The translations under genes and the position numbers were made by a program. The notes beneath the pieces were generated by a model. It had not been told where the DNA came from and did not search any database. It was given only the letters and a program-made list of their open reading frames with translations. Below are positions 9,188 through 48,133 of a stretch of 64,000 bases of DNA, in pieces (positions within the stretch are counted from its first letter, which is position 1; the number at the start of each line of letters is the position of its first letter). Source of the stretch: Mesaphorura yosii (Eukaryota > Arthropoda > Collembola > Poduromorpha > Tullbergiidae); contig WIXG01000111.1 in assembly GCA_009869945.1 (NCBI GenBank), positions 149,192 through 213,191 of the forward strand, given 5' to 3'.

Positions 9188-10146
9188 ATGGGTTCTTCTG
9201 GTCCACTCACGGCATTTGTATTAGGTGAGAAATGAAATATCGACATCAACGGTTCGATAAGCTGCTTCAGATTGAGTAAAACTAGATGGTCTCAATTTCT
9301 CAATATTAATTGTCCTAATGGTTTCAGGAGCCACCGGAGAATGCGGCAAGGAGATAGTCAAGGAATTATCAAAGCAGCCATTGATTACATCGGTTACGCT
9401 TATTGGAAGACGCCAAATTGATCTACCCGAAACCTCGTTTGAAGAGGGAACCGATTACACGAAGTTTAAGCAAGTGGTGGTCGACTTTGATAATTTGGAG
9501 GAGCGCTCTGATGCATTCCAAGGCTTTGACATGGGATTCTGCGCCCTTGGAACAACTATAAAAAAGGCAGGCAACAAGGCAGCATTCTACAGAGTGGATC
9601 ACGACTACGTTGTTAATGCTGCAACGATGGCCAAAGCCGGAGGTTGTAAGCACATGATTGTCAGTAAGTCCACTAGCATTCGCACCAGCAAACATTTCGG
9701 GATTTTTTCGGCAGCTGTTGATTTGACCCCAACTTTTACTTGTACAGTTTCATCTACCAGCGCCAACAAAAATTCATTCATTTACTACTCAAAAGTTAAG
9801 GGACGAATGGAAGAAGATGTCACTGCAATAGGGTTCGAACGATTGACAATTGCGAGGCCAGGTGGGTTAAAATAATGCAAATGCCCCTCGCCTCAAATTG
9901 TCAAATTTTTAAACCACGATGCACCATGTTTTTACGTATATCTTAGGCCTTCTTCTGTGTGATCGAGCTGAACAGAGAACTGGCGAGAAGATAATGGGAA
10001 GTGTGCTTGGCACCGTCGACAAATGGAGAAGTACTTGCGTCGAAACGAGCAAAGTTGCTCGAGCATTGGTTGGGAATGCTTTGAAGCCGGCAAGTGGAGC
10101 TGTCGAAATTCTCGACAATGCTGCGTTGAACAAAGATGGAATTTAA
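9188..10146 (+). CDS. HTATIP2: HTATIP2/TIP30-like short-chain oxidoreductase, intron-containing paralogue
   Basis: Exons 9188-9224, 9328-9663, 9748-9861 and 9947-10146 (687 nt, 228 aa). This is an atypical NAD(P)-binding SDR of the TIP30 family. Visible are the nucleotide-binding Gly motif GATGECG split by intron 1, the VDHDYVVNAA segment typical of the family, the Y-x3-K catalytic pair (YSKVK), and the ARPG-LLLCDR block that vertebrate HTATIP2 also carries. The joining of exons 3 and 4 restores this block across a phase-1 intron. The C-terminal third is less conserved. It is convergent with GLOD5. A second copy lies 18 kb downstream at 27397. Vertebrate TIP30 is linked to nuclear import and apoptosis; the substrate here is unknown. 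Confidence 0.9.
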
Positions 10147-10939: not shown

Positions 10940-12752
10940 TTTCTGAGCGTTTTGCGTCACAGTCGCTGTCACAATATATCCTGTTCAAACGAAGCAAGAT
11001 ATCATTACGGACCAGGCCGGAAGAATGAAGAAGACGTACGTCAAAGTCAAAGGGTAAAATGTTTTTCCATTTTAAACAAATGGAGCGTGAACGACATGGC
11101 CGTATTGCAATGAATGAAAAGGCAAGACAAAAAGAGTGATGCCCTCAACTGGAACAAAGGCTAGTCGTGCGGGTCTTCACTCGTCAATGAATCAGAGAAA
11201 TAATGAAGCTACACAGGAAATTAAAATCTGTTATTTACCTTTAGCAAATTGCAAATGCAATTCCAATGCCGGTGGAATTGGACCACGCGTAGAGATATTT
11301 GCTTCAAACCTCACGTGCCCTGCGGAATTCTAAGCGAAGAAAGTGTTCAGTGCGCTATAATTCCAGATGAATCAACAACCAAAGGTTATGTAACCATATT
11401 TCAGTTCAACCTCAGATTCAAGTTCAACTCAAGGACGACAAAAAATTGCCCTTGAATTGTATCGCATTTTACGAGCTGAACTTTCTCTAACTTTGGGTTC
11501 TTGTGTGAATGAATGAATGACATGAATTCCAGTTACTCCTTGTCCAGTGCTTTGAAAATTTATGCAAACTGCCTTCTTCGAAAGTGCCAGTCGTAAATTC
11601 CATCTGCCAACAGCTTGCAGTTTGGCTTGGCAAATGGTCCGTCATCTCGCATCTGCTTTTATCTACTGCTATCGCAGAAAAATAGAATTTCCACTCCATG
11701 GAGTGTTTCGTACTTGAAAATTAGACAAAGAGCAAAGTTCCCATAATCATTGCCATTGTCATTGCATGATCCATACAAATTAGAATAAAACAGGCCCATA
11801 TGTTGAACTTTTAAACCTCTCCGGCTCTCCTCCATTACAATTACGGCGTACGGCAGTGCCCGTAGAAGAATTCATTACCATATTTGAATAATTTAGCGGC
11901 TCTCATTATTTCATTTTTTGCTCCACTTCGGTGTCCACGTCCACCGGGGAAAGTAAGTGAAAGCCCTCCCATTGAAATGTGATCTTAACCATCTCAAGCA
12001 GCAGCCGTGTATCCTCATTACTTATTTATGTGCCCTGCTTAATCTGGCATGAAACTGAGACCTTTGCTTTGCCTTGGCTTCCTGTTTTCTTGGAATTTTC
12101 CTATCCCACGGGCCACGGCATTCCGACTGCATTCCCATGTTCTGGGCCGTGGTAAGCTGGTACTTGAATGTTCACTTCATTATGTGACTGTGAACTTTCT
12201 CTGTTTACTTTTCCTCTACTGCTTTCTTTTGCACACTCGTGGCAAGGCTCCACGCTCGGACTCTGAGCTGGGAACCTTTTAATGAGCATGTAATACAGTA
12301 CACAAGGTACGACATGCATTGCTTTTATCTTGAAAACACACCCCGGGCCAGGCCAGCCTAGGCCGCCAAAAGAAAGAAAGAGGGAGACAGGGAATGGCGA
12401 ATGGGCGAAATGACGCGGACGAGAACTGGCAAATGAACAAGATGAAATTAGACGCCAAGACACTCACTTCCTGAGCGCTCAGTTTCAGTTTCGACATTTC
12501 CAGTATTCTCTGTTCACCCATTCGCCTGCAGAAAACATGTTTATTCAATTTATTCGATAAAAGGAAATTCGAAAACACGACACGGCCCAGTGACAACGCC
12601 AGTCTCGTTCGAGCCCTCATTTTCACTTGACACGTCATATATTTCTCTTTCACCAGCACAAAGAACAAATAGCTAAGAACACAAAAGCACAAGTAAATTA
12701 GCATTCGAATAGCAGTTTTCAATTTCAATTTAATTTGTAATCACTATTCAAC
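10940..12752. other. Intergenic interval, no gene seen
   Basis: Between GLOD5 and the first secreted-protein gene no conserved coding segment was recognised. Upstream noncoding exons of both divergently transcribed genes may lie here. Confidence 0.45.
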
Positions 12753-13414
12753 ATGAAGGAGGTACTCTATATTCAATTTGTGAACTCTGTCGCGATATTT
12801 GCGCTGCTCTTGGCGTCTGTACGGGCCGATGGAGTGACGCCAATAAAAGACATGCCTGTCACGCTCTTGAAAACTGGAGCACGTACTTTCGCCGGGCTAC
12901 AGGCTGGATCACCGTTGGTGGCGGTACAAGAAAAGCCCCGTCATAGCCAGCATGAGATAACGGAAGACGACGACAGGATATTGGCCGCCATCCTAAGGAA
13001 GGCCGAGGAAAAGCAGCAGGTGGCCGAGGCTGCGGCTGCAGGAGACGCCGGTGAGTACGAAGACGACGAGAAAGACTACTACGAGGACGACGAAGATGAC
13101 GACCGTTGTCCGGAGGAAGGTGAGATTTTCTTCGAAAAGAGTGGCCAATGTGTTCCACGAATATGCCCCACCGGAACACGAAGAGACCTTGAAACTGGAT
13201 TTTGCCACAAGAAACTCACAGGCTTGAGGCGTCATGGGATGGCCGGATGGTCGTACTCTCCCTACTACCACAGGTAAATCATACTTGATTTTTTTTTACC
13301 AGTCTCGGCTGGTCTCCATTAAGCCTGATTTTTCTTAATCTTTTCCGTAGGAGCAGTTTTAATAGATTTGCCGCTCCGCGGCCTCGTCTAATGTACCCCA
13401 GGTTCAGGGGGTAA
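12753..13414 (+). CDS. Secreted acidic cysteine-rich protein A
   Basis: Exons 12753-13273 and 13351-13414 (585 nt, 194 aa). Residues 1-25 look like a signal peptide (hydrophobic IFALLLASVRA core). A middle low-complexity region is followed by a strongly acidic Asp/Glu/Tyr run at about residues 95-113. Next comes a four-cysteine module with spacing C-x13-C-x4-C-x12-C that includes GQCVP and a D-x2-TG-x-C end. The phase-2 intron leads to a short, basic Arg/Pro C-terminal tail. A paralogue with the same module, the same intron phase and the same kind of tail follows 1.3 kb downstream. I do not recognise the family; the CP-x-G-x...GQC pattern weakly recalls insect DUF4789 proteins. An extracellular or matrix role is only an inference. 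Confidence 0.8.
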
Positions 13415-14681
13415 GGCCTTGTTTCTATTGAATGGAGACGAAAAGGTAGAATAGAATGTAATTTTTTAGTCAAAATCTTGCATTCGTGTTCCTGTTCCTA
13501 GACTTCTTGAATAAACTTTACCTTTGTGTGTTGTGCTCTCAAGTCCGGCAATTCAGTTGTGGCTGTCAACTCATTCAAAAACTGGAAGTATTAAAATTCA
13601 TTCATTTCAGCATCTTTGGAGCTTTAAGCTGGTCTGGCATCAAGCTGGAAGGCTGATCTCAAATAATTCCATTCATTCACCCGCTGACGGGATTGGGTGC
13701 TTCGAATGTGGTTCGAGCTACTCAGCTTCAGTCAAATGCCAAAATGTCAAAGGTGCAATAGGGCTATTCTGGCCTTGTTGACGAACTTAATTAAATGTTA
13801 AGACGTCTTGCCAGCCTGTCATTCGTTATTCGCTTTTGCTATCTCACTTTACATATCGAGTGGGCTGTGCCGTCAGCTTTGGCCCACGGAGGTCTATTCC
13901 ATTAGGCAGTCAAGTCTTTTGGTACTAATCCGAGCAGTTTTCGCGAACTCCAAATTCCGCGACATTTGGTTCGACTCGGCTTTAAAGAATTCTGTGGAAT
14001 ATTGCAAAATGTCACAGTCCTAGAACTAGATCCTCTTTTCTTGTTTGGAATTTATTTGGCTAATACTCTTAATAAAAGTCAGTCATTCAAATCCGAGGCA
14101 CGGCACGTCTCGTCTGTACAGGCATGCAGGCGGAGTTGGCGGACGGTGGAGGCAGATTGCTTTGCATGTTTCCATCTTTGAAAGGAGATCACTTTGCTTT
14201 GCCTTGTCTTGTCTTTCCATTTCCACTCAGTCAGTGTCGAGTCTCTGGAGCGCAGCTTAAAATAATATTATGGAAAGTTTAGTCAGTCGTAAAATACATT
14301 TTCACTCCTCCGCGAAGCACTAAAATGGTACTGGCGCATGCTCTGCAATTTAGGCCCACAGTCCTGGTACACTTGAGCCAAGCATATTGACTAAAGTCTA
14401 CACGGACGAAAGCCCACAGCATCCAAAAGGGGTTATTGATTATTTCGTATTTCGTACAAGAACCAAGATGTCTTTCTAGAAATGGCAAATGGCAAACCCT
14501 CCGAGTATAATTTGCTCATTGCCATTTGCGAATCGCGAATCCTAAATCGAGGCTTTATTTGAGGAGCAACAGGCGTGGGCTGCGGACCATTTTCCTAAGT
14601 CACTCCAACTAGATTTCTCTTGTCGATTCTTCCATTCTAGTCCGAGTTCCTTTCCCACTTGTCACGTGCCCAGTCTTAGCA
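13415..14681. other. Interval between the two secreted-protein genes
   Basis: Apart from the polyadenylation signal nothing was recognised. It presumably holds the 3' UTR of gene A and the promoter of gene B. Confidence 0.4.
13510..13515 (+). terminator. Polyadenylation signal of secreted protein A
   Basis: AATAAA about 95 bp after the stop codon of the gene at 12753-13414. Confidence 0.6.
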
Positions 14682-15200
14682 ATGGGTGAACGTAACTTCA
14701 TTCTCACCGTTCTGTTAATCACACTGGCCCTTGGAGTGCTTAGCGGGCGTCCCGTTCCGGGCGCCCTTCGAAAACTCGCAATGAACAACAACGGGCGTCT
14801 GTTCGCGAAGCGCGACGGATTACCCGGTTCCGTTGCTGAGCATTCGAACCAGATCCCATTGTTGCCGGACTACTACGGCGAATCAGAGGAGATTCGTTGT
14901 CCACCCGGGACAACTCTGTACTTCAGGAGTGGACAATGTGTACCTGACCGCTGCGGGTTTGGAATGGTGCGAGATCACGTTACAGGGGACTGCATCAACG
15001 ATGAGGACATGCCAAACAACATTCCACTCATGGATGCATTCATCGAACCGTAAGTTGCTCAGATTTAGTTAGCTTTCCATTTGCATTCTTTTTTTACACT
15101 TGACGGTTAACTCAGACTCAGGATTTCATACAGACGTCCTGCTCGGGGCCATGGAAGTCGCGGCAAGCCATCAAGAGCAATCATGAGAGTTTTGGGTTAA
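14682..15200 (+). CDS. Secreted cysteine-rich protein B, paralogue of A
   Basis: Exons 14682-15049 and 15134-15200 (435 nt, 144 aa). The N terminus is a clear signal peptide (FILTVLLITLALGVLSG). The mature part carries one four-cysteine module, C-x12-C-x4-C-x12-C, containing RSGQCVPDRC and a VTGDC end. This matches protein A in cysteine spacing and in the GQCVP core. The intron has the same phase 2 and lies the same way after the module, and exon 2 again encodes a basic tail rich in Arg/Gly/Pro ending in RVLG. B lacks the long acidic region of A. The conserved gene structure supports tandem duplication with divergence outside the module. Function unknown. Confidence 0.8.
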
Positions 15201-17710: not shown

Positions 17711-20108
17711 TGATACAGAAATCAAAATTTCTAAAACAGGCAGCAGAAAGGTTACTTCTAGATCCTTGGTGGAATTCGACACTAAATTGATTTACCTTGA
17801 CCACTACATGTTCAGACAGCGTCCGTACTAGATAAAAAAAATTCATAAATACTACATTGAGGAAGTTACTCTTCATGCATATGAGAATAATTCCGTCCCA
17901 TAATTTTCTTCAACTTTCAGGAACTCACAACATCAAAAAGAACGCAAAGTTCATTTCGCATTTTATTTCACGGCAATACTCTAGTGCCTATCACGTCCCA
18001 GTGCATTTTATAAAATGCAAAACCCATGCTCAAATTTCATGATAATCTAATTATTTGCTGTCAGAGGGTGTCGCCGATTAAATGGGATCAAATCAAAACA
18101 ACACCCTTCAGCTGCTGCGGTGCAATTTAATTTAACCTTCTCATGACTCATGACTTATTTGACTTTCAGAAAATATCATCAGCATCAAATTGTGGTTGAC
18201 TTGCGACAGCGAAATGGAAATTGCGCGTCCACTCTATCGGCTACCCCGTTCTCAGAGTTTCGCTAAAACCAGGCCTGTAAAGTTTATGGCACTGGCACTG
18301 GCACTCTTGTCATCATGCATCGTTCTTCGGTGTACTGCACCTCAAAAATATACATGGTAAACAAAATTGCGACTGGACATTGGATACCTTTCAAACGGTT
18401 GTCGATGCAGAAGTAATTTTGCATGCTATTCGCTATTTGAAACTTTTCTGGAAGCTCGATGTTAGCTGTAGTGCATTACCAAGCATTCCAGTTCCAGTCG
18501 AATTAACCGGATGCTGCGGGTTGCAGATTCTTCCTTTAAAGTTGCTGAGTTGCAGTACAGGAAAGTCAAACGAATGTCAATCCAGAATTCATTTACATTC
18601 TTTGCATTCCATTCCAGTCTCACTGTGGTATCGCCAAAACCACAACCAAAATATTTATATTTTTACTGTGTTCGGAACGCAAGGACATGTCGGTATGCAA
18701 TGCATCCAGCAAAAGCCAACATTTGTCCCGAGGCAAAGGGCAAAACAATCTGTTCCAGTAAGCAACCTTAAACGCTAAACCAGATAAATCCAGTTGTATG
18801 GCTGGTGCGGTGCAATCCAGGTCCTGGAGTCCTATCCCATCCTCTATATTTACGTGTGGGCGTAGTGTCAGTTAGCCGCTCAAGCTTTGTTTATGAAATT
18901 GCGAAACGAATATCAGTTTAACCTTCAAATCCAGCCAAGTGCGATCAAAAGTGAATTTTTCCGACTGCATAATAACAAAAACAAATACGACTCATTGCTG
19001 GCTTCGTTGCTTATGATTTCGAAATCCCATGCTGAAGTGTTTACGTCGCATTTCGCACAGTACCGTGTCTGCTTGATGATAGACGTATATTTATAACTTT
19101 AACTACACAACCACGATAATCATAATCATGAAGCTTACCGCACCAACTTCCTCTATTTGCTGTTTACATTTCGTGTTTATGCTCGTATTATGCGCTTATT
19201 TCTGGCAACGAGCTTAAAAACAAATGATGTCTCATTTTAACTCGTTGAACCCACCGCGACACGTATACATGTGGATGAACTGGCAGGAAAATGTAGCTGA
19301 TGCTGATACGAGTTGGCAACAACACCAAGGAGGACATTTAAGGTTATGCCGGGTGCAGGGCGCCGGCTCACATTATTCTTGACTTCCTTGACATCTTGAA
19401 TGATTAAGGATTTATGAACCATTTTCAAGCGTAATAAGGCTGGCTACTGATGGGATTTGGATTCTGGTTTATCCGGAAGCCTTCCTCTTCAAGATTTTTA
19501 AACCATACGTACTGACGCAATCGAGATGGCGGAAATCAAATGATAAAGTTCAATTATTTTGATGCCGATAGTTTTCATCTGCCGCTCAGTTCCCGCACGC
19601 ATGAATGCCAGGTAAATTTTGGGTCTACGTGCTCTGAAACATGTACGCACTTTTACGAACGTGCGTGCTCGCAGGTTCGCAAGACCTGAGAAGGGAAAGA
19701 AACGAGGGCAGCCGTACGCATACGCACAACGAACAATAGAACGCACATCAAGATGATGCTAAATGCCAGTGCTCAAGTCCTGATAGTGATCATATATCTC
19801 ATTTCGCTAAACGCGTTGCATAGCAAAGAATTGTACTGCACAAGTACAGCGCAGGTGCCCTGGCTGATCTAAACGGAGTACACTTTCAGGAGTTAACGTG
19901 GCTTGATTGGTCATTCATGCTGCAATTATGTACATTTAACCCTGTGGAAAGCCGAAAATAAGCACTGGTGCTGGGATTTCGAGACATTATGACAACATTG
20001 GGCTTGCGAAATGCTGTAAGGGCGTTCGACGGACGACGGTAATATGATGGACGTGGGCTTGGGTGGTCCTATCTGTGCAAATTGCGACTTAGTCTGGGGT
20101 TACGCGCC
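17711..20108. other. Intergenic interval, no gene seen
   Basis: No conserved coding segment recognised. The right end leads into the core promoter at 20.1 kb. Upstream noncoding exons of the minus-strand coiled-coil gene probably lie near 17.8 kb. Confidence 0.4.
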
Positions 20109-20150
20109 TATATAAGGAAGCAGCGCAACTCCAGCGAGTCGCAGATCAGT
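20109..20150 (+). promoter_or_regulatory. TATA/initiator-type core promoter
   Basis: TATATAAG at 20109-20116 is followed by an arthropod-type initiator TCAGT at 20146-20150, about 37 bp on. No coding starts for another 385 bp, where the small Ser/Pro protein begins. The spacing is slightly longer than the usual 30-33 bp, so the true start may be a few bases upstream. Confidence 0.55.
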
Positions 20151-20534
20151 GTTCGGCTTTTCAAGGTATAAGTCGTACGTACAGCCAACAGTGTACTAAA
20201 AGCCCGATTTTACGTTGTCACATTCATTCGGGCTCCAAAAAATTCCATACTACGAGTTACAAGTCGGTGCGGTACTGCAGACTAGTCGCCTAGCAAACAC
20301 AAACTTGCGACGCAGTTTCTTTCGTTTACATCCTGCGTTGTTCCAGGCATAGGCAGGGAGAATTGCATTTGAGGATCCAGCAAGCGAAGGAAGGCGTAGA
20401 AAAACCTAAACAAACTCATTCACCAAGTTCCTCTTGACAAAGGAAGACGTTTACTCTGAAGAGTGAAGAAAAGCATTCATCCAACCTTCTACAACGTGAA
20501 TTTCACTACATTGTGAATTGATTTGATTACTAAA

Positions 20535-21211
20535 ATGGTAAGTTCATTCTTAGGTTAACTAGCTCGTGTTTAGTTGAATTCGGTTTTCCAGTATTCGTTG
20601 GTTAAGTAGGACAAATAATCGATATGGCGAAAGAGCAGTGCTCGAGTTGGGCCCAAGATTTATTGATCTCCTTTTCTTTGTGCTTTGCAGGCTTCACAAC
20701 CGCAAGATATCGGAAAACAGAGTAAGCTTCTATTTTTAGTATTCAGGTATTCATGTTCGCAAATTGAGGTCTAATTTCGAAAATTCTCATTTTCCCCACA
20801 GCTCGCTACCATTGGTGGTATGACAACAAAGCTGCAGGGGTTCGCAACCCTCCAGGAATTGGTATGCAGAACAACACTCCGCCATCGTCACCGCCGGGCA
20901 CTGACAACGCTCCGCGCAGATTTTCATTGACCAGTGGCTTGACCAGCATGACCGGCACATCTCCACCATCAGGCGCAGGTAGCATGAAAGACAACTATGT
21001 CGATTTAAATCACCTACTCGGCAATATAGACATTTAGCTGTAAGCTAGATTCCTATTAATGCTTGATTTGTGCAAATTCTGTTCGATGGACACGATGGAC
21101 TAATTAAACGATTTCATTTTTGTGTTTGTTTCAGATATCGCTGCACGCCCGCGTCGTGACAGCCTCAAAAACATGTTCCACTTAAGCGACTTTGGAACCC
21201 CAGGAACATAA
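20535..21211 (+). CDS. Small Ser/Pro-rich phosphosite protein, unrecognised
   Basis: Exons 20535-20537, 20691-20721, 20802-20978 and 21135-21211 (288 nt, 95 aa). The first coding exon ends directly after ATG at a strong donor (ATG|gtaagt), so exon 1 supplies only the initiator Met. The protein has an aromatic N-terminal block (RYHWWYDNKAAG), a Pro/Ser stretch (NNTPPSSPPGT), and two basophilic kinase consensus sites, PRRFSLTSG and PRRDSLKNMF, either side of an intron. No domain or membrane segment is visible. If the intron at 20979-21134 is retained, the frame continues for about 20 codons to a TAG at 21037, giving an alternative C terminus ending in LLGNIDI. The look is that of a small regulatory phosphoprotein; the role is unknown. 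Confidence 0.7.
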
Positions 21212-21711
21212 ACAACTGCAACCATGACCAATCACTATCACAAGCCACTGCAGTACAAAATGGCGGTTAACAGAACGGTGACGACACCAAAATGGAACTG
21301 ATCTATTGTAGATATTCATAAATACCCAACATTCAAGTATACGTAATGTTAACCACAAACACAGAAATTCTAAAAAAAAATGTTAACGTGCGAGTAATAC
21401 ATTAGCAATACTTTCTAGTACTAAATTGAATCTTGATTTTTGATCTTGATACCCATGTCGGAGGAAAGTTCAGGAAATGTGTAGTTAAGTTTAGTACTTT
21501 TGTAGCTTTGCATTTACGTGTTTGAGAAGATTCGTCGGGCAATCTTCATTATCATAATGCTAGGTTTTTTGTTAGCGTTGATGAATGGTTATGTTTACAA
21601 CACACTTACACAATTTAAATGTGTACACCTAACTTTAGTTTTGCAGTTCTCTTTTGTTATTGGTTCAACAAAATAAGCTGTCAAAACCCTTCAACGAAAC
21701 TGCAGAATTGA

Positions 21712-21717
21712 AATAAA
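21712..21717 (+). terminator. Polyadenylation signal of the Ser/Pro protein gene
   Basis: AATAAA 500 bp after the stop codon. No other gene on this strand intervenes. Confidence 0.5.
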
Positions 21718-22055
21718 TTGTTGGTTGTTCGAAGAAGACAAGTGATTGCTGGATAATTGCTTTGAATCTTGATAAAACAGTCAAAACGAAGACTTTATTC
21801 AGAAAAATCAAGAGAAATATAGGCTTTTTACATGACATTTAGTAGTTAAAATAATGTTGACACATGCGTTCAGATTAAAAATGTGAATAATGTATAAACG
21901 TAATACTATAATTTACGTTGACTTCAAAAACTTGATCATCACGAGTGGAACTGAGGATCCCTGATTGATTAGTAGCGAATACGCGACCGCCTAATTTCCA
22001 AAGTGGAGCAGCTCATCGACATTGGTCTTGCGCTCGAGGATGCATACACTTGTAT

Positions 22056-23096
22056 TTATTCATCGACGATGTCATTTAGATTCTCCTCTTCTGCACCGTC
22101 CTCCTCGTCGCCCTCCTCTTCTTCCAGCTCACCCAGTTCTTCATCATCCGAATCCTCAAGCTCTTCTTCATCACTACTCAAATCGACGACAGTTACTGTG
22201 GCCGGTTTCGGTCTGGAGAGGAGTTTTAGTTCAAGGTCAAATTAATCACCATTCACTGCAGTTTCTCAAATAAAATTGATGAAAAACGAGTACGCTTACT
22301 TTTTTGCGTCTGCACTGCCGTTTAAGGTACCATTACTGGAGGATGCATCCGCTGAAAGAAACGGCAAACGTTTATGAAATGGTTAATACATCCGTGAACG
22401 TAAATGATGTATTTAAATTCTTCAAAGACATTTAGACATTTCGTCTATACCGTTATAAACATGTCGACACAACGGCGCGACGCGATAATGATATGTTCAT
22501 AGCCTCGGGAGCCTTATCGGTCTCAGTATCGTGATTCATACTCCAGCAAATTCTCACCACTTGCACCTCAACATCCTTAGACCTTTCCGTTTATCTGTGC
22601 AAAACAACACCCGTTGGGTGGCTTTTTCAGTCACTGCCCTGTAAGCGATTCGTTCAAAGACAACGTTAGTGCGCTCGTAATCGTAATGAAAAGTTACAGG
22701 CTTTGACGCCTGAATGGCTGAAGCTTTTAATGTGATTGTAATTCTAAGAGATCCAGAATTCTTGGGATTTTCGTCTTGTATAGCTTGGATTGGATACATT
22801 AACTTACATGTGCTCTCAGATGGTCTCTTTGCTCCTGGTTTTAAAGCAGCACCGCTTGCAGTTCCACTGCCGGTGCTATCTGGTGCACCTGGGTCGTCAA
22901 ACTCGGCTTCATCTCCGCCATCACTGCCATAGTCTTCATCATCTGAATCTGGTGGATTTCCTGCGTATCGCATCGGTCGTTTAGTAGCGAGAAACATACG
23001 TGGTGGCGGTCGTGGGTGCTTCACAGCGAGCTGCATCCGCGGCGCCATTCCTCCCGTTGATTTGCGAGCCGTTTGCTTGATGCGATCTTCACTCAT
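22056..23096 (-). CDS. Protein with histone H3 N-terminal tail mimic and acidic C terminus
   Basis: Exons 22808-23096, 22300-22351 and 22056-22212 (498 nt, 165 aa). All junctions are canonical: ACAT|gtaagt, tttctttcag|CGG, AAAA|gtaagc, ctctccag|ACC. Residues 5-26 align without gaps to histone H3 residues 2-23, with 18 of 22 identical, including an exact copy of H3 K4 to G13 (KQTARKSTGG). The differences are T3I, K14M, K18M and T22V. There is no histone fold. After the tail come a Pro/Arg stretch, an acidic segment (DSDDEDYGSDGGDEAEFDD), a Ser/Gly linker and a very acidic C terminus of Asp/Glu runs ending in NLNDIVDE. The architecture suggests a nuclear acidic protein that could bind histones or chromatin readers; this is inference. 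It faces TPX2 head-to-head 640 bp away. I do not recognise a named family. Confidence 0.85.
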
Positions 23097-23740
23097 TGTT
23101 GCAAAGTCTCAGAAATCGATCTTCAGTACTTCTTTTTTAATTTTACGATCGAATTAATAAAATTAAATGGATTCCCAAATTGTATAAATGTAATCAAATC
23201 AATCACGGCAAGGTACGAAAGAATCACTTCACGTCAAACTTCCAGCCAGAAAATGCTCACTTTTGGTAGGTGCTCCTTATTGGCCATGCATGAAGGATTC
23301 ACAAGGAAGTATGCGCATGAACGTCTCACCGCATGAAACAAAGGAAAAGTTCATCTTGTGCTGGCACTGTTGAAACAACGTCCCGCGATATTTTTCCATA
23401 AACCGTCTCATTGAAGAAGCCTCTCATAAGGGCTGGTGGCGCAATTCTGGAATTATCCATTCGTTCAGGGATCTGTTGGGATTAATTTTAATGTTTATTG
23501 GTGTTTTAAAACTTGCTCGAAGCTTACGCCTTACGCGACTGATTGAAATATTTTAGTGTTTTAACTGAAGTACCAAGTGCAAAAGCTGACACTGACCGAG
23601 ATTTTACCAGTGCGGATAAACCGCTCTTCCGACCACTGAATTAACCACCGTATTACTGTCCAGTAAGTAATTATTGGGGGGACGCATGTTGCCGATTTAT
23701 AACTTTCAATAAAATTAACTTCATAGGTTCGGTTTCAGAA
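23097..23740. promoter_or_regulatory. Shared 5' region of the H3-tail protein and TPX2
   Basis: The two start codons are 644 bp apart and divergent. On the plus strand a strong donor (CCA|gtaagtaa, 23662/23663) and an acceptor (ggtttcag, ending at 23738) mark a noncoding first exon of TPX2. On the minus strand there is an exon-like segment at 23330-23472. A bidirectional promoter is an inference from layout; no TATA box was evident. Confidence 0.45.
23330..23472 (-). other. Exon-like minus-strand segment with a 44-codon open frame
   Basis: The segment is bounded by an acceptor (attaatcccaacag, ending at 23473) and a donor (GCG|gtgaga). One frame is open throughout. From its internal ATG it reads 44 codons with a balanced, protein-like composition (begins MDNSRIAPPALMRG, includes FFNETVYGK). 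Spliced to the next acceptor-like site upstream of the H3-tail ORF (ctgag, about 23118), the frame would end in a TGA overlapping that gene's start region. It may therefore be a 5' UTR exon with an upstream ORF, or a coding exon of an unrecognised gene. I do not recognise the peptide. Confidence 0.35.
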
Positions 23741-26324
23741 ATGGATCCACAATTCAATGATGACGATTACGACGCAATCAACGCTCCACAATTTCTGGAC
23801 TTCAGCTTGCTGGGCATCAACTCGGACGATGAGGAAGCTGACAGATTTTTTGGTAAGATTAAGACGGCTAAATTAAATATAAGTTGCGAAAGTTGTTCAC
23901 ATTTCCCCACATGTTGCGTTGATGCGATACCAGATAGCAGTAACCGGTTATATTCTTCTCTTAGAAACTCACAAAGAAGAGGATGATAATTTCGTTCCTG
24001 TTGAAAATTTGTCACCAACGATTCATCTTATGGGCGACAGTGCTGGCCATGCGTCTAATACTGTTGAACCAGCTTACCCATACTCCTGTCAAGTGACTAC
24101 AATAGATGAAACGATGGGCGATGCACACATGGTCAATGTGGAGTCTCCACCAAGATCGTAAGATTACTTAACTTAGAATGCATAACGATGACAAATAAAA
24201 GTATGCTAATGCTAACACATTTGCAGACGCGAAATCGGTGAAATGCAAAAGTTGTGTTTGACTAAATCTGAAGGCGTAAATGAATTCATAAATGGTACAA
24301 ATGGTACTTCCTACGAAACTGAAGCAGGAAACGAAGAAAAACGAGAGTCAGGCTCGCCGAAAGTCAGGTTTGTAGACTTTGAATTGCCATATCTAAAGGG
24401 GTACCTTAACTCGTAATTATTATCTTACACTTATTCAGTGTTGTGATGGAAGGCATAGAACGTCTCGATAGTAGCATTGAAGACGACAAAGATGGAGATG
24501 AAGTACGCGCAGTTGCAGCCGAGAACTTGAAGAAGGACGTTTGTGTTGATGAACAACCGGAAAGTGACAAAGAGAATTTGGAAACAGAGCAGCCTAAGCA
24601 GCGTTATAAAGCTCCTACTCCTAAATCGCCGGAACGTAGGAAGCGACATAGCTCCATGCCGGAATCGTAAGCTAAACATTAAGAATAGCTTGATTATAAC
24701 ATTCGTGCGTCCTTTGACAAGGGACTGTGCTTATCAAACTCGAACCTTATTTTATTGATCGATTTTAGACGAACTAAAACTAAGGAGATTCCGAAGCAGG
24801 CTAACCAGCGTCCTATCGTGCATTTACTGTCCAAATATACCACAAAAGTAACGATCCCTCAGCCGTTCAATTTGCATCAAACCCGTCCAAGAATTCGTGT
24901 GGTAAGCTTAACCTGCTTAACATTCAGTACTAAAAAGTTCTAAGAAAAAAGTCTAATTCTGATGTGTGTAATAACGCAAAGTAAGTGGCAAATGGAAGTT
25001 TGAGCTGTCCTATTTTTTTTACAATACAGCAGGAAACAAAGGAGCAGTCAGAGTTTAAGTTCAAAGCTAATCCTGTCCCAATCAAGGCGCTCCAAGGGCC
25101 AGCAATGAAGCGCAAGATTGAAACTAAAGTTACGGAGCCCAAAGCACCTCATTTTGCATCTGAGGACAGAATTCGTGAACGACAGGAAAAGAAAGCTGCA
25201 ACCTTATCGCTACCGGTAGGTGGAATCAGTGCTAGTTTGTTACTTTGGAACCATGAATTTACGTGTATCATTTATATGAATATGTCACATGATCACATAA
25301 CGTACGTATTCAGGATTCTCCTAAGGATTCAGGGAACTTAAAGAAATCTGGACCGTCGTCAATTGCTAGTTCGTCAAGATCTTGCAGGCCACCCACTCCG
25401 AAGAAGGTTTTGCCGCCAACTCCAACGAAGGTGCAGCCATTCAGTTTCGCCGCAAGAGACGAAGAAATGTTGAAAAAGAAGGAACAAAAGATGCAACAGG
25501 TATACTCCTAAGGCTAAGCTAATTGAAATTGAAATTTGTTTCGTACAAACATGAGCCTTGTGCTTATATGGACATAGGAACTCGAGAAAAAGATAGAATC
25601 TTTCGCATTTCACGCCAAGCCTCTCCCTTCTTTCAAACCAAAACTTCCGAAGAAACTTTTAATCGAAGTCACGAGTGTGGAGCCATTTAAATTACAATCG
25701 GATGAACGTGGCGCGATGTATCAGCAAGCCTGGAAAGCGAAGGTAAGTTAGGGAATTGTCTCATGCTTTAGAAATATGAAATTTCATCGTCGGAACTATT
25801 TTACCGATCCTTAATGATCTCTAGCTCGAGAAGGAAGAAAGAGAATTGAAGGAGAACAAGGTTTTCCACGCGAATCCGCCAACAGTTCTTTACAAGAAAC
25901 CCTTTGAACCTGTTCTTGGAATACTTCCACTAGCAGAACCGATTGACATTCAATTAAATACGGACAAACGAGCCCAAGAGCGTGGACTTTATGAGGAGCA
26001 AATGCGGGAGAGGGACCGCGAGGAAGAGGAGCAACGCCAAATGGTGCGCTTGTGTGATATGAATTGTGAGACAATTGCACGAATGTTTATCACTACTCTG
26101 TTCCTTGCTTAATTTAGGAGGACGCCATGCGACGAGAGCAAGAGAGACAAGAACAGATTCAACTCAGGAAGCAGTTGGTTCACAAGCCCAATCCGCTCAA
26201 ACCGTTCAGAGTCTTTCAAGTTAAAGGATCTGACAAGCCGTTGACCAATCCGAAGAGCCCAGCTTTCGCTCCGTTGCCGTCTCAGCGTCGAGTTATGGAA
26301 AAGGGAAAGTATCCAAGTAATTGA
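23741..26324 (+). CDS. TPX2: TPX2 spindle assembly factor
   Basis: Ten coding exons: 23741-23852, 23965-24157, 24227-24367, 24439-24666, 24769-24901, 25030-25215, 25314-25499, 25578-25742, 25825-26043 and 26118-26324 (1770 nt, 589 aa; human TPX2 is 747). TPX2 nucleates spindle microtubules and activates Aurora A under Ran-GTP control. The N terminus keeps the Aurora-A-docking pattern (YDA...APQFLDFSLL then ADRFFE, compare human YDAPSDFINF and SWFEE). A KEN degradation box sits in exon 4 (SDKENLE), matching APC/C turnover of TPX2. The C-terminal half has repeated TPX2 motifs: FKFKANPVP, PFSFAARDEE, FAFHAKPLP.F, VFHANPP and PFEPVLG, with basic helical linkers. A noncoding first exon precedes it. 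Confidence 0.9.
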
Positions 26325-26973: not shown

Positions 26974-27396
26974 TCCTCAATTTATGACTTGAAAAACACA
27001 CGGTTTGGAAACAAATTCCAATTCCCCGAACTGTCGCGCTTGCCTTATCAGCAGTAAATTCCACAAAATCTTCTATGGCCAAGCTTATTTTTTCTTTCAA
27101 TGAGATCCCAGAACCAGAGAAATGGCCATCATGTGATGAGAATACGCAAAACGGTGCGAGCGCGTGAGCTTGAAGTTCGAAGATGGGGACCAAGTACAGC
27201 TTTTTACGTGAGACTTTCTCACATTGACAAGGTGTGAATAGCAAAATTGGTGAATCGTTGCTGATGACAATGGTGAGGAGTTGTGGAACTATCAATCAAA
27301 TCAATAATAATCGAAGGTGAGATATTTGGTAACTGCTGAACTTTGAAGAATAGGGATATTAACTTTCAACCCGTGATTCTTTCCTGTCAGGAAGTA

Positions 27397-28227
27397 ATGC
27401 TGACTCGCCGAACGTTGCTGCAAATCCTGTTTACTACGGGCTTATCCGCGTTTTGCGTCCAGTATTTTGTTCTATCTCTGCCACTACCCTTATCTGGCCC
27501 AAATTCTGCGTCGGCGCAGTTCAACCTGACCAAATACTCATCGGGAAAGATGACAGCGCAAAAACTCAAGGTCGTTTTGCTTGGAGGCACCGGCGCCATT
27601 GGGCAGGAGGTGGTAAAAGCTTTGGCAGCTGAAGAAAAGATTCAGCACGCTACCCTTCTTCTTCGACGCGAAGTTGATCTCAGCAAGTACATGGAAAAGG
27701 AGCAACAGAGTAAGTTTTCTCAAAAAATCATCAACTTTGACCAACTCGACGGCGAAGATTTCAAAGATTTCGATGTCTGCATCAGTACTTTGGGCACCAC
27801 TCGTGGTAAATCTGGAGTAGACGGGTTCTACAAGGTGGACCATGACTATGTCGTGAATACCGCCAAGTTGGCTAAGGCTGGAAACTGCAGGCACTTCAAT
27901 TTGGTGACTTCTGGGGGCGCGAATAAGAATTCATGGTTCCTTTACCTAAAGACCAAGGGACAAGTTGAAGAGGAAATTTCAAGCATGGGATTTCCAAGAA
28001 CCTCCATTTATCGTCCAGGTGTTCTCCTTACGAGTACTCCAAGACCCGACTCGAGACGAATTGAAGCAGCATTGCAATTCGCAGCTAAGTGTGTGGATTT
28101 CATGAGGCTTTTAAGTATTGAAACGTCTGTGGTTGCAAAAGCGATCGTCAACAATTCAGTCCGCAGCTCCGACACACCGCTTGAAGTGTTGAGCAACAAT
28201 GATATTCTAAATATTGGCAGAAAATAA
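27397..28227 (+). CDS. HTATIP2: HTATIP2/TIP30-like oxidoreductase, intron-poor paralogue with N-terminal hydrophobic leader
   Basis: One uninterrupted coding exon of 276 codons. The ATG at 27397 lies 6 nt after a good acceptor (ctttcctgtcag), implying a noncoding first exon. The core starts near 27549 (MTAQKLKVVLLGG). It shows the nucleotide-binding GGTGAIG, STLGTTRGK, VDHDYVVNTAKLAKAG, catalytic Ser (VTSGGANKNS), Y-x3-K (YLKTK) and YRPGVLL. The 50-residue extension upstream of the core contains a long hydrophobic stretch (LLQILFTTGLSAFCVQYFVL) that resembles a signal anchor or targeting helix, absent from the paralogue at 9188. Translation from 27549 would give a plain cytosolic form. Lack of introns in the body, where the other copy has three, suggests a retrocopy or intron loss. 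Confidence 0.88.
   Translation: MLTRRTLLQILFTTGLSAFCVQYFVLSLPLPLSGPNSASAQFNLTKYSSGKMTAQKLKVVLLGGTGAIGQEVVKALAAEEKIQHATLLLRREVDLSKYMEKEQQSKFSQKIINFDQLDGEDFKDFDVCISTLGTTRGKSGVDGFYKVDHDYVVNTAKLAKAGNCRHFNLVTSGGANKNSWFLYLKTKGQVEEEISSMGFPRTSIYRPGVLLTSTPRPDSRRIEAALQFAAKCVDFMRLLSIETSVVAKAIVNNSVRSSDTPLEVLSNNDILNIGRK

Positions 28228-31242: not shown

Positions 31243-48133
<16,891 letters not shown>

Follow-up and report, generated by a model that had tools for sequence, protein, structure and literature searches.

How does a protein that is not a histone come to begin with the tail of histone H3, and what could such a tail do away from the nucleosome? The question is raised by a gene in a 64,000-nucleotide stretch of contig WIXG01000111.1 of the collembolan Mesaphorura yosii (hereafter, the window; coordinates count from its first base). 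A preliminary description of the window had proposed a spliced gene for a 165-residue acidic protein with an H3-like N-terminus. We therefore examined the gene model, the extent and origin of the resemblance, the selection acting on it, and the host proteins that might recognise it.

The gene was modelled as three exons on the minus strand (23096-22808, 22351-22300 and 22212-22056), which join into a coding sequence of 165 codons and a stop. Its parts are the following:

22808 to 23096, minus strand: exon 1, from the ATG at 23096 through the H3 tail-like segment, the first acidic segment and a Ser/Gly linker to the donor GTAAGT; it encodes residues 1-96 and the first base of codon 97
22300 to 22351, minus strand: exon 2, a Ser/Asn/Gly linker
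22056 to 22212, minus strand: exon 3, the SIM-like motif, the acidic C-terminus (residues 117-165) and the TAA stop
21794 to 21799, minus strand: AATAAA, a candidate polyadenylation signal 256 bases past the stop

Both introns are of the GT...AG type (GTAAGT...TTTCTTTCAG and GTAAGC...CTCTCCAG), and the exon junctions of the preliminary description, 22808/22351 and 22300/22212, proved to be exact with respect to both the splice sites and the joined open frame. A codon table built on 12 ORFs (1903 codons) gave the complete coding sequence a score of 0.146 in its own frame and of -0.126 and -0.606 in the two shifted ones; the segment of residues 47-96 scored 0.106 in frame versus 0.103 in the +1 frame and was thus not separated. 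The synonymous preference was equalled by 88 of 2000 background draws, and the GC3 of the coding sequence was 0.41, beside a GC of 0.418 for the window and 0.524 for the training ORFs. Judged from the sequence, the support for coding is positive and modest. The Rfam scan of positions 20000-25000 returned zero families above the gathering score, and a search of 21400-22200 at E<=10 gave 11 weak matches, none of them to the histone 3' stem-loop RF00032, so that the gene does not carry this hallmark of replication-dependent histone genes. A tRNA scan of the window returned no genes.

The H3-like part of the protein lies entirely in exon 1 and is divided as follows:

23019 to 23084, minus strand: residues 5-26, matching H3 2-23 with 18 of 22 residues identical
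23049 to 23078, minus strand: KQTARKSTGG, the unbroken H3 K4-G13, with the ARKS core in which K12 equals H3K9 and S13 equals H3S10
22962 to 23018, minus strand: residues 27-45, aligned without a gap to H3 24-42, 5 of 19 identical (R26, K36, P38, R40 and Y41)

The ungapped match of residues 5-26 to H3 R2-K23, which had been noticed on the predicted protein, was confirmed. The four differences are T3I, K14M, K18M and T22V, and none of 200,000 shuffles of residues 5-26 reached 18 identities in register. When the protein was compared with PDB chains by phmmer, H3 was the top match (E 3.6e-5, with an alignment spanning residues 5-45) among the best 60 of 130 distinct sequences at E<=1. The phmmer and shuffle results reject a chance origin of the match. 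Meanwhile, residue 26 had been taken as the end of the resemblance. The stretch up to that point stands as described, but the ungapped match runs weakly on to H3 R42, giving 23 of 41 identities over H3 2-42. Over this length K4, R8, K9, S10, R17 and K23 are kept, and K14, K18 and K27 are changed, the last of them to Pro.

It should be noted that the second block of the match is far less secure than the first one. In-register shuffles reached the match over the 19 residues of H3 24-42 in 4,283 of 200,000 cases (p about 0.02) and that over its last nine residues in 937 of 200,000. In addition, PPRMFLATK in residues 27-45 partially repeats APRMQLAVK (38 of 20,000 shuffles). The resemblance to H3 24-42 may therefore be explained in part by an internal repeat, and homology and repeat may both have contributed. 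Met also occurs at H3 positions 31 and 39, which brings the substitutions to Met to 4 of the 18 in H3 2-42 and means that the gain of Met is not restricted to acetylation sites. The excess has a P of about 4e-4 to 6e-4 under a codon model and was noticed post hoc.

The genome of the animal (93.0 Mb in 1127 contigs) was searched with the tail piece, residues 4-46. All four candidates were scored, and they were the mimic itself and three H3 genes (E values of 8.3e-6, 2.3e-5 and 0.03), with no second mimic among them. A search with the whole protein yielded three matches from 17 candidates and likewise no second mimic.

The remainder of the protein holds two further features that may bear on its function:

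22881 to 22958, minus strand: first acidic segment, residues 47-72, net charge -11, containing SDDEDY and DEAEF
22161 to 22196, minus strand: VTVVDLSSDEEE, a SIM-like sequence with a hydrophobic core followed by Ser/acidic residues

The C-terminal acidic segment (residues 117-165) has a net charge of -26, and the basic N-terminus of the mimic one of +9. By eye, we take SDDEDY and DEAEF to resemble the acidic-aromatic DEF/Y histone-binding motifs and, also by eye, assign VTVVDLSSDEEE to the class of SUMO-interacting motifs. The Pfam scan of the 165 residues gave no family at E<=1, neither the histone fold (PF00125) nor a chaperone domain, and the search of introns and flanks (20000-25500) for a remnant of the H3 fold gave nothing better than E 4.3. 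The protein has the acidic tracts of acidic histone chaperones and no recognised chaperone domain; the likeness to these chaperones drawn in the preliminary description thus holds for the acidic composition but not for the domain. The main proposal of that description, by which an acidic protein other than a histone carries an extended mimic of the H3 tail, is supported.

From which gene could the tail have come? In the H3.3 gene of the same genome (contig C283), the tail lies on a separate coding exon. The first coding intron of this gene splits codon R42 (...TACAG, then GTAATAA; exon 2 opens with G CCT GGA), and the end of the H3 match in the mimic coincides with this exon-1 boundary. Descent from an H3 coding fragment, suggested earlier, gains support from both the ungapped match to R42 and the boundary, and the source was probably H3.3 rather than canonical H3. 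The boundary argument, however, depends on the weak match to H3 24-42 (p about 0.02), part of which may instead reflect an internal repeat.

The codons of the mimic point to an old separation. It shares its codon with H3.3 at 7 of 23 common residues and with a divergent H3 variant on contig C667 at 6 of 24, and H3.3 and the variant share theirs at 21 of 37; the DNA identity of the mimic is 65 of 123 bases to H3.3 and likewise 65 of 123 to the variant. With so few codons in common, the tail is neither a recent copy of one of the assembled H3 genes nor the product of a misjoining with one of them. A chimeric assembly with an H3 fragment, considered earlier as a possible artefact, is ruled out for the assembled H3 genes by these values, canonical H3 being outside the comparison. 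The earlier explanation of K14M and K18M by a change of AAG to ATG requires one step at each site if the parent had AAG, but H3.3 has AAA at both positions, two changes away from ATG; the C667 variant agrees with the explanation at K14 (AAG) but not at K18, where it has Arg AGG. No canonical intronless H3 was present among the scored matches of two genome searches (at least 14 and at least 28), and contig C62 starts within an ordinary H2A gene (L057; 22-residue match, bases 3-68; G000:C62:3-68). The canonical histone genes, those of H3 included, seem to have been left out of the assembly, which makes both the codons of the parent and the time since the split uncertain. The tail is probably an old H3 derivative, the K4-to-K23 part of which has been maintained by selection though the fold is gone.

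Several other histone loci were observed in the same genome. The C667 variant (L004, G000:C667:4961-5371) is intronless, has K18R, A25P, S28M and A29V in its tail and is followed by the stem-loop RF00032 (39.0 bits, above the gathering score). There are seven more divergent H3-like loci, on contigs C237, C469, C287, C339, C335, C998 and C11 (L005-L009, L013-L016); RF00032 matches after those on C237, C469 and C287 score 27.6-32.4 bits, below the gathering score of 34, and the frame of the C287 copy is interrupted by a TAG. H2A and H2B, too, are represented by divergent variants. H3.3 and the divergent H3 variants share the tail with the mimic, and H3.3 is the probable source of the exon, but they retain the histone fold. 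By eye, the tail of the mimic has changed less than those on C469 and C237, and the tail on C287 keeps 17 of 22 residues. In the divergent variants the fold is kept and the tail eroded, whereas the mimic presents the reverse.

Selection within the tail was estimated with a codon model of two branches, in which kappa was 2, both branches had the same length in time and H3 was kept almost constant. At the best-fitting times, omega was about 0.07-0.1 for H3 2-23 and 0.7-1 for H3 24-42. Two omegas were preferred to one with p 2.5e-7 when H3.3 was the relative and 2.4e-7 when it was the C667 variant, and an omega of 1 for H3 2-23 was rejected with p 2.1e-5 and 7.9e-6, respectively. As the breakpoint had been picked after the data were seen, the order of sites was permuted and the contrast maximised over 30 breakpoints; the observed contrast was reached by 2 of 3000 orders, the best break falling after H3 residue 21. 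The contrast is independent of the split time but presupposes that the H3 24-42 block is homologous. Should this block have arisen as an internal repeat, the argument for constraint would fall back on the retention of 18 of 22 residues although few codons are shared, and it would be weaker as the parent's codons are uncertain. In the one genome examined, the H3 2-23 part thus appears to be under selection and the H3 24-42 part appears to have drifted.

Could the host recognise such a tail? For this, the genome was searched for parts of the H3K9 methylation pathway, with an HP1 sequence as a query. Seven chromoshadow matches fell on six loci, and chromodomain sequence was present in the DNA of all six. 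Pre-SET matches were found at three loci (L054, L055 and L056). The chromodomain was not found in the fetched DNA of L054 and L055; in L056, Pre-SET is preceded by a chromodomain and followed by the SET motif NHSCDPNL, which is the Su(var)3-9 arrangement, and two TGA codons within its Pre-SET match were taken as an intron. Genes for both the writer and the HP1-type reader of H3K9 methylation exist in the host genome. HP1 chromodomains read QTARK(me)S, and QTARKS is intact in the mimic. Given the HP1-like and Su(var)3-9-type genes, we infer that methylation of ARKS with HP1 binding is the best mechanism.

The neighbouring gene is the following:

23741 to 26324, plus strand: TPX2-like neighbour, divergent and head-to-head with the mimic gene; the outer bounds are ORF ends

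If 23741 is the start of the neighbour, 644 bases lie between the two ATG codons. The two halves of the TPX2-like PF06886 match at 25846-26109 (E 2.4e-5, 24.6 bits) and 26127-26321 (E 1.7e-5, 25.1 bits), the cut-off being 25, and PF12214 at 24985-25338 (E 0.0027, 18.5 bits) is below its cut-off of 29.5. The first ORF of the neighbour (23741-23983) has no Pfam match above cut-off, and we join it to TPX2 on the likeness of its N-terminus. The head-to-head arrangement suggests that the mimic may be expressed in dividing cells.

Other ORFs of the window were noted in passing. Two NAD(P)-binding proteins on the plus strand (9276-9872 and 27343-28224) are alike by eye and presumably HTATIP2-like; the second, the only one of the pair scanned, matches PF13460. 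Two secreted-looking ORFs, also on the plus strand (12741-13274 and 14613-15050), have in common, by eye, a short Cys motif around SGQCVP and are possibly tandem duplicates. An ORF at 47109-47681 has an EF-hand match and is alpha-actinin-like, resembling, as we assume, Drosophila alpha-actinin.

The best explanation, which we hold tentatively and with somewhat less than even confidence, is a histone mimic by descent that acts through methylation of Lys12 as a ligand of HP1. An H3 tail-coding exon, probably of the H3.3 type, would have been placed at the front of an acidic, disordered-looking protein without the histone fold. Lys12, the H3K9 equivalent, would be methylated by the Su(var)3-9-type enzyme of the genome and bound by HP1 chromodomains, which would make the mimic a soluble, chromatin-independent HP1 ligand, either a recruiter or a competitor. 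The acidic tracts and the SIM-like motif would bind histones or, putatively, SUMOylated heterochromatin partners. With Met at K14 and K18, the mimic would be blind to acetylation there, and phosphorylation of Ser13 (the H3S10 equivalent) in mitosis could release HP1. The HP1 mechanism rests on a motif, and it has a point against it, as the acidic tail might mask the basic mimic segment in cis. A narrower version, in which capture of the H3.3 tail exon gave rise to a maintained free H3 tail, acetylation-blind at K14/K18 and serving as a soluble HP1 competitor or recruiter, seems to us possible rather than likely. Readers of a free N-terminus should be kept out by the added MSED and by T3I; survivin, to which the first alanine is essential (PMC9253516), is one of them.

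Part of this evidence would also fit a histone chaperone or import adaptor, a reading that we consider unlikely. In it, the tail would be a handle for importins or for acetyltransferase or chaperone complexes, without H3K9 readers, or it would form an electrostatic switch by folding back onto the acidic tracts of the same protein. The opposite charges of the acidic segments and the N-terminus and the SDDEDY and DEAEF pieces agree with this, as does the extension of the conserved block to H3 K23, since HP1 needs less of the tail than that. The reading accords poorly with the missing chaperone domain and with the replacement of K14 and K18, the lysines of charge and acetylation, by Met, while the ARKS core is perfect. 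Trapping of an H3-tail enzyme by a K-to-M tail (K14M, K18M and a second R-M at 33-34), in the manner of EZHIP and PRC2, is improbable in spite of the post hoc excess of Met. The SET target lysines K4, K9 and K36 stay Lys and K27 is Pro, so that Met stands at none of them; the established cases of K-to-M trapping concern SET enzymes, and we know of none for K14/K18 acetyltransferases. What speaks for the trap, besides the excess, is the R-M dipeptides at 20-21 and 33-34, which recall the VRMR of the EZHIP motif as given in PMC12713659.

That the locus is a decaying, functionless H3 fragment, either a pseudogene exon or an untranslated open frame, we regard as quite improbable. The genome does contain many divergent H3 copies, including the one on C287 with its internal TAG, and GC3 and codon preference support coding only modestly. 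Against decay stand the retention of 18 of 22 residues despite few shared codons, the rejection of omega = 1 for H3 2-23 with either relative, and a frame that stays open across three exons, with canonical splice sites and an AATAAA. The least probable of these readings is convergence, by which an unrelated disordered protein would have gained an H3-like N-terminus without descent from H3. The published mimics compared here are short motifs, and the DNA identity to H3.3 is low, both of which would suit convergence; but the 18 ungapped identities together with the in-register K36, P38, R40 and Y41 make a match longer than convergent mimics, and its second block and last nine residues are reached by few shuffles. 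A viral or bacterial carrier was also considered: 14 viral and 196 genome contig stretches matched the peptide pattern and none was confirmed at E<=1e-3, in a scan with a single query sequence that reaches close relatives only.

Among known systems, the non-histone substrates of G9a/GLP (WIZ, LIG1, ATF7IP, CDYL and EHMT1/2 themselves) have an RK-centred H3K9-like motif that an H3K9 enzyme methylates and that CBX proteins presumably read, according to PMC10611923. With ARKS at residues 10-13 of a non-histone protein, the mimic has a motif of this type, although here it is known from sequence; in PMC10611923, a four-residue core is drawn from ten-residue segments, unlike the 22 aligned and probably inherited residues of the mimic. 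EZHIP (CXorf67), as presented in PMC12713659, is an H3K27M-like PRC2 inhibitor with a conserved 14-residue motif and VRMR core. It is likewise a non-histone protein bearing an H3-like peptide with Met in place of Lys, but it copies H3K27M, whereas the mimic has Pro at K27 and Met at K14/K18. Shugoshin Sgo1, likewise no histone, also starts with an H3-like tail, namely the four residues AKER, which require an N-terminal Ala1 (PMC9253516); the mimic differs in having MSED ahead of R2 and Ile at T3. Literature searches for the mimic peptide and for an H3.3 exon or retrogene returned no publication, and nothing alike appeared among the matches listed for H3-like tails, K-to-M mimics and exon capture or fusion. 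To our knowledge, there is no earlier case of a whole-tail histone mimic by descent, and within the literature matches listed, the protein would be the first one.

The published mimics compared copy 4 to 14 residues, and the match of this mimic is 22. If the favoured explanation is true, the H3.3 tail exon, closed by an intron within codon 42, would be a movable module that gained a function of its own, and the mimic of M. yosii would serve as a natural experiment on the importance of single tail residues once the nucleosome is gone.
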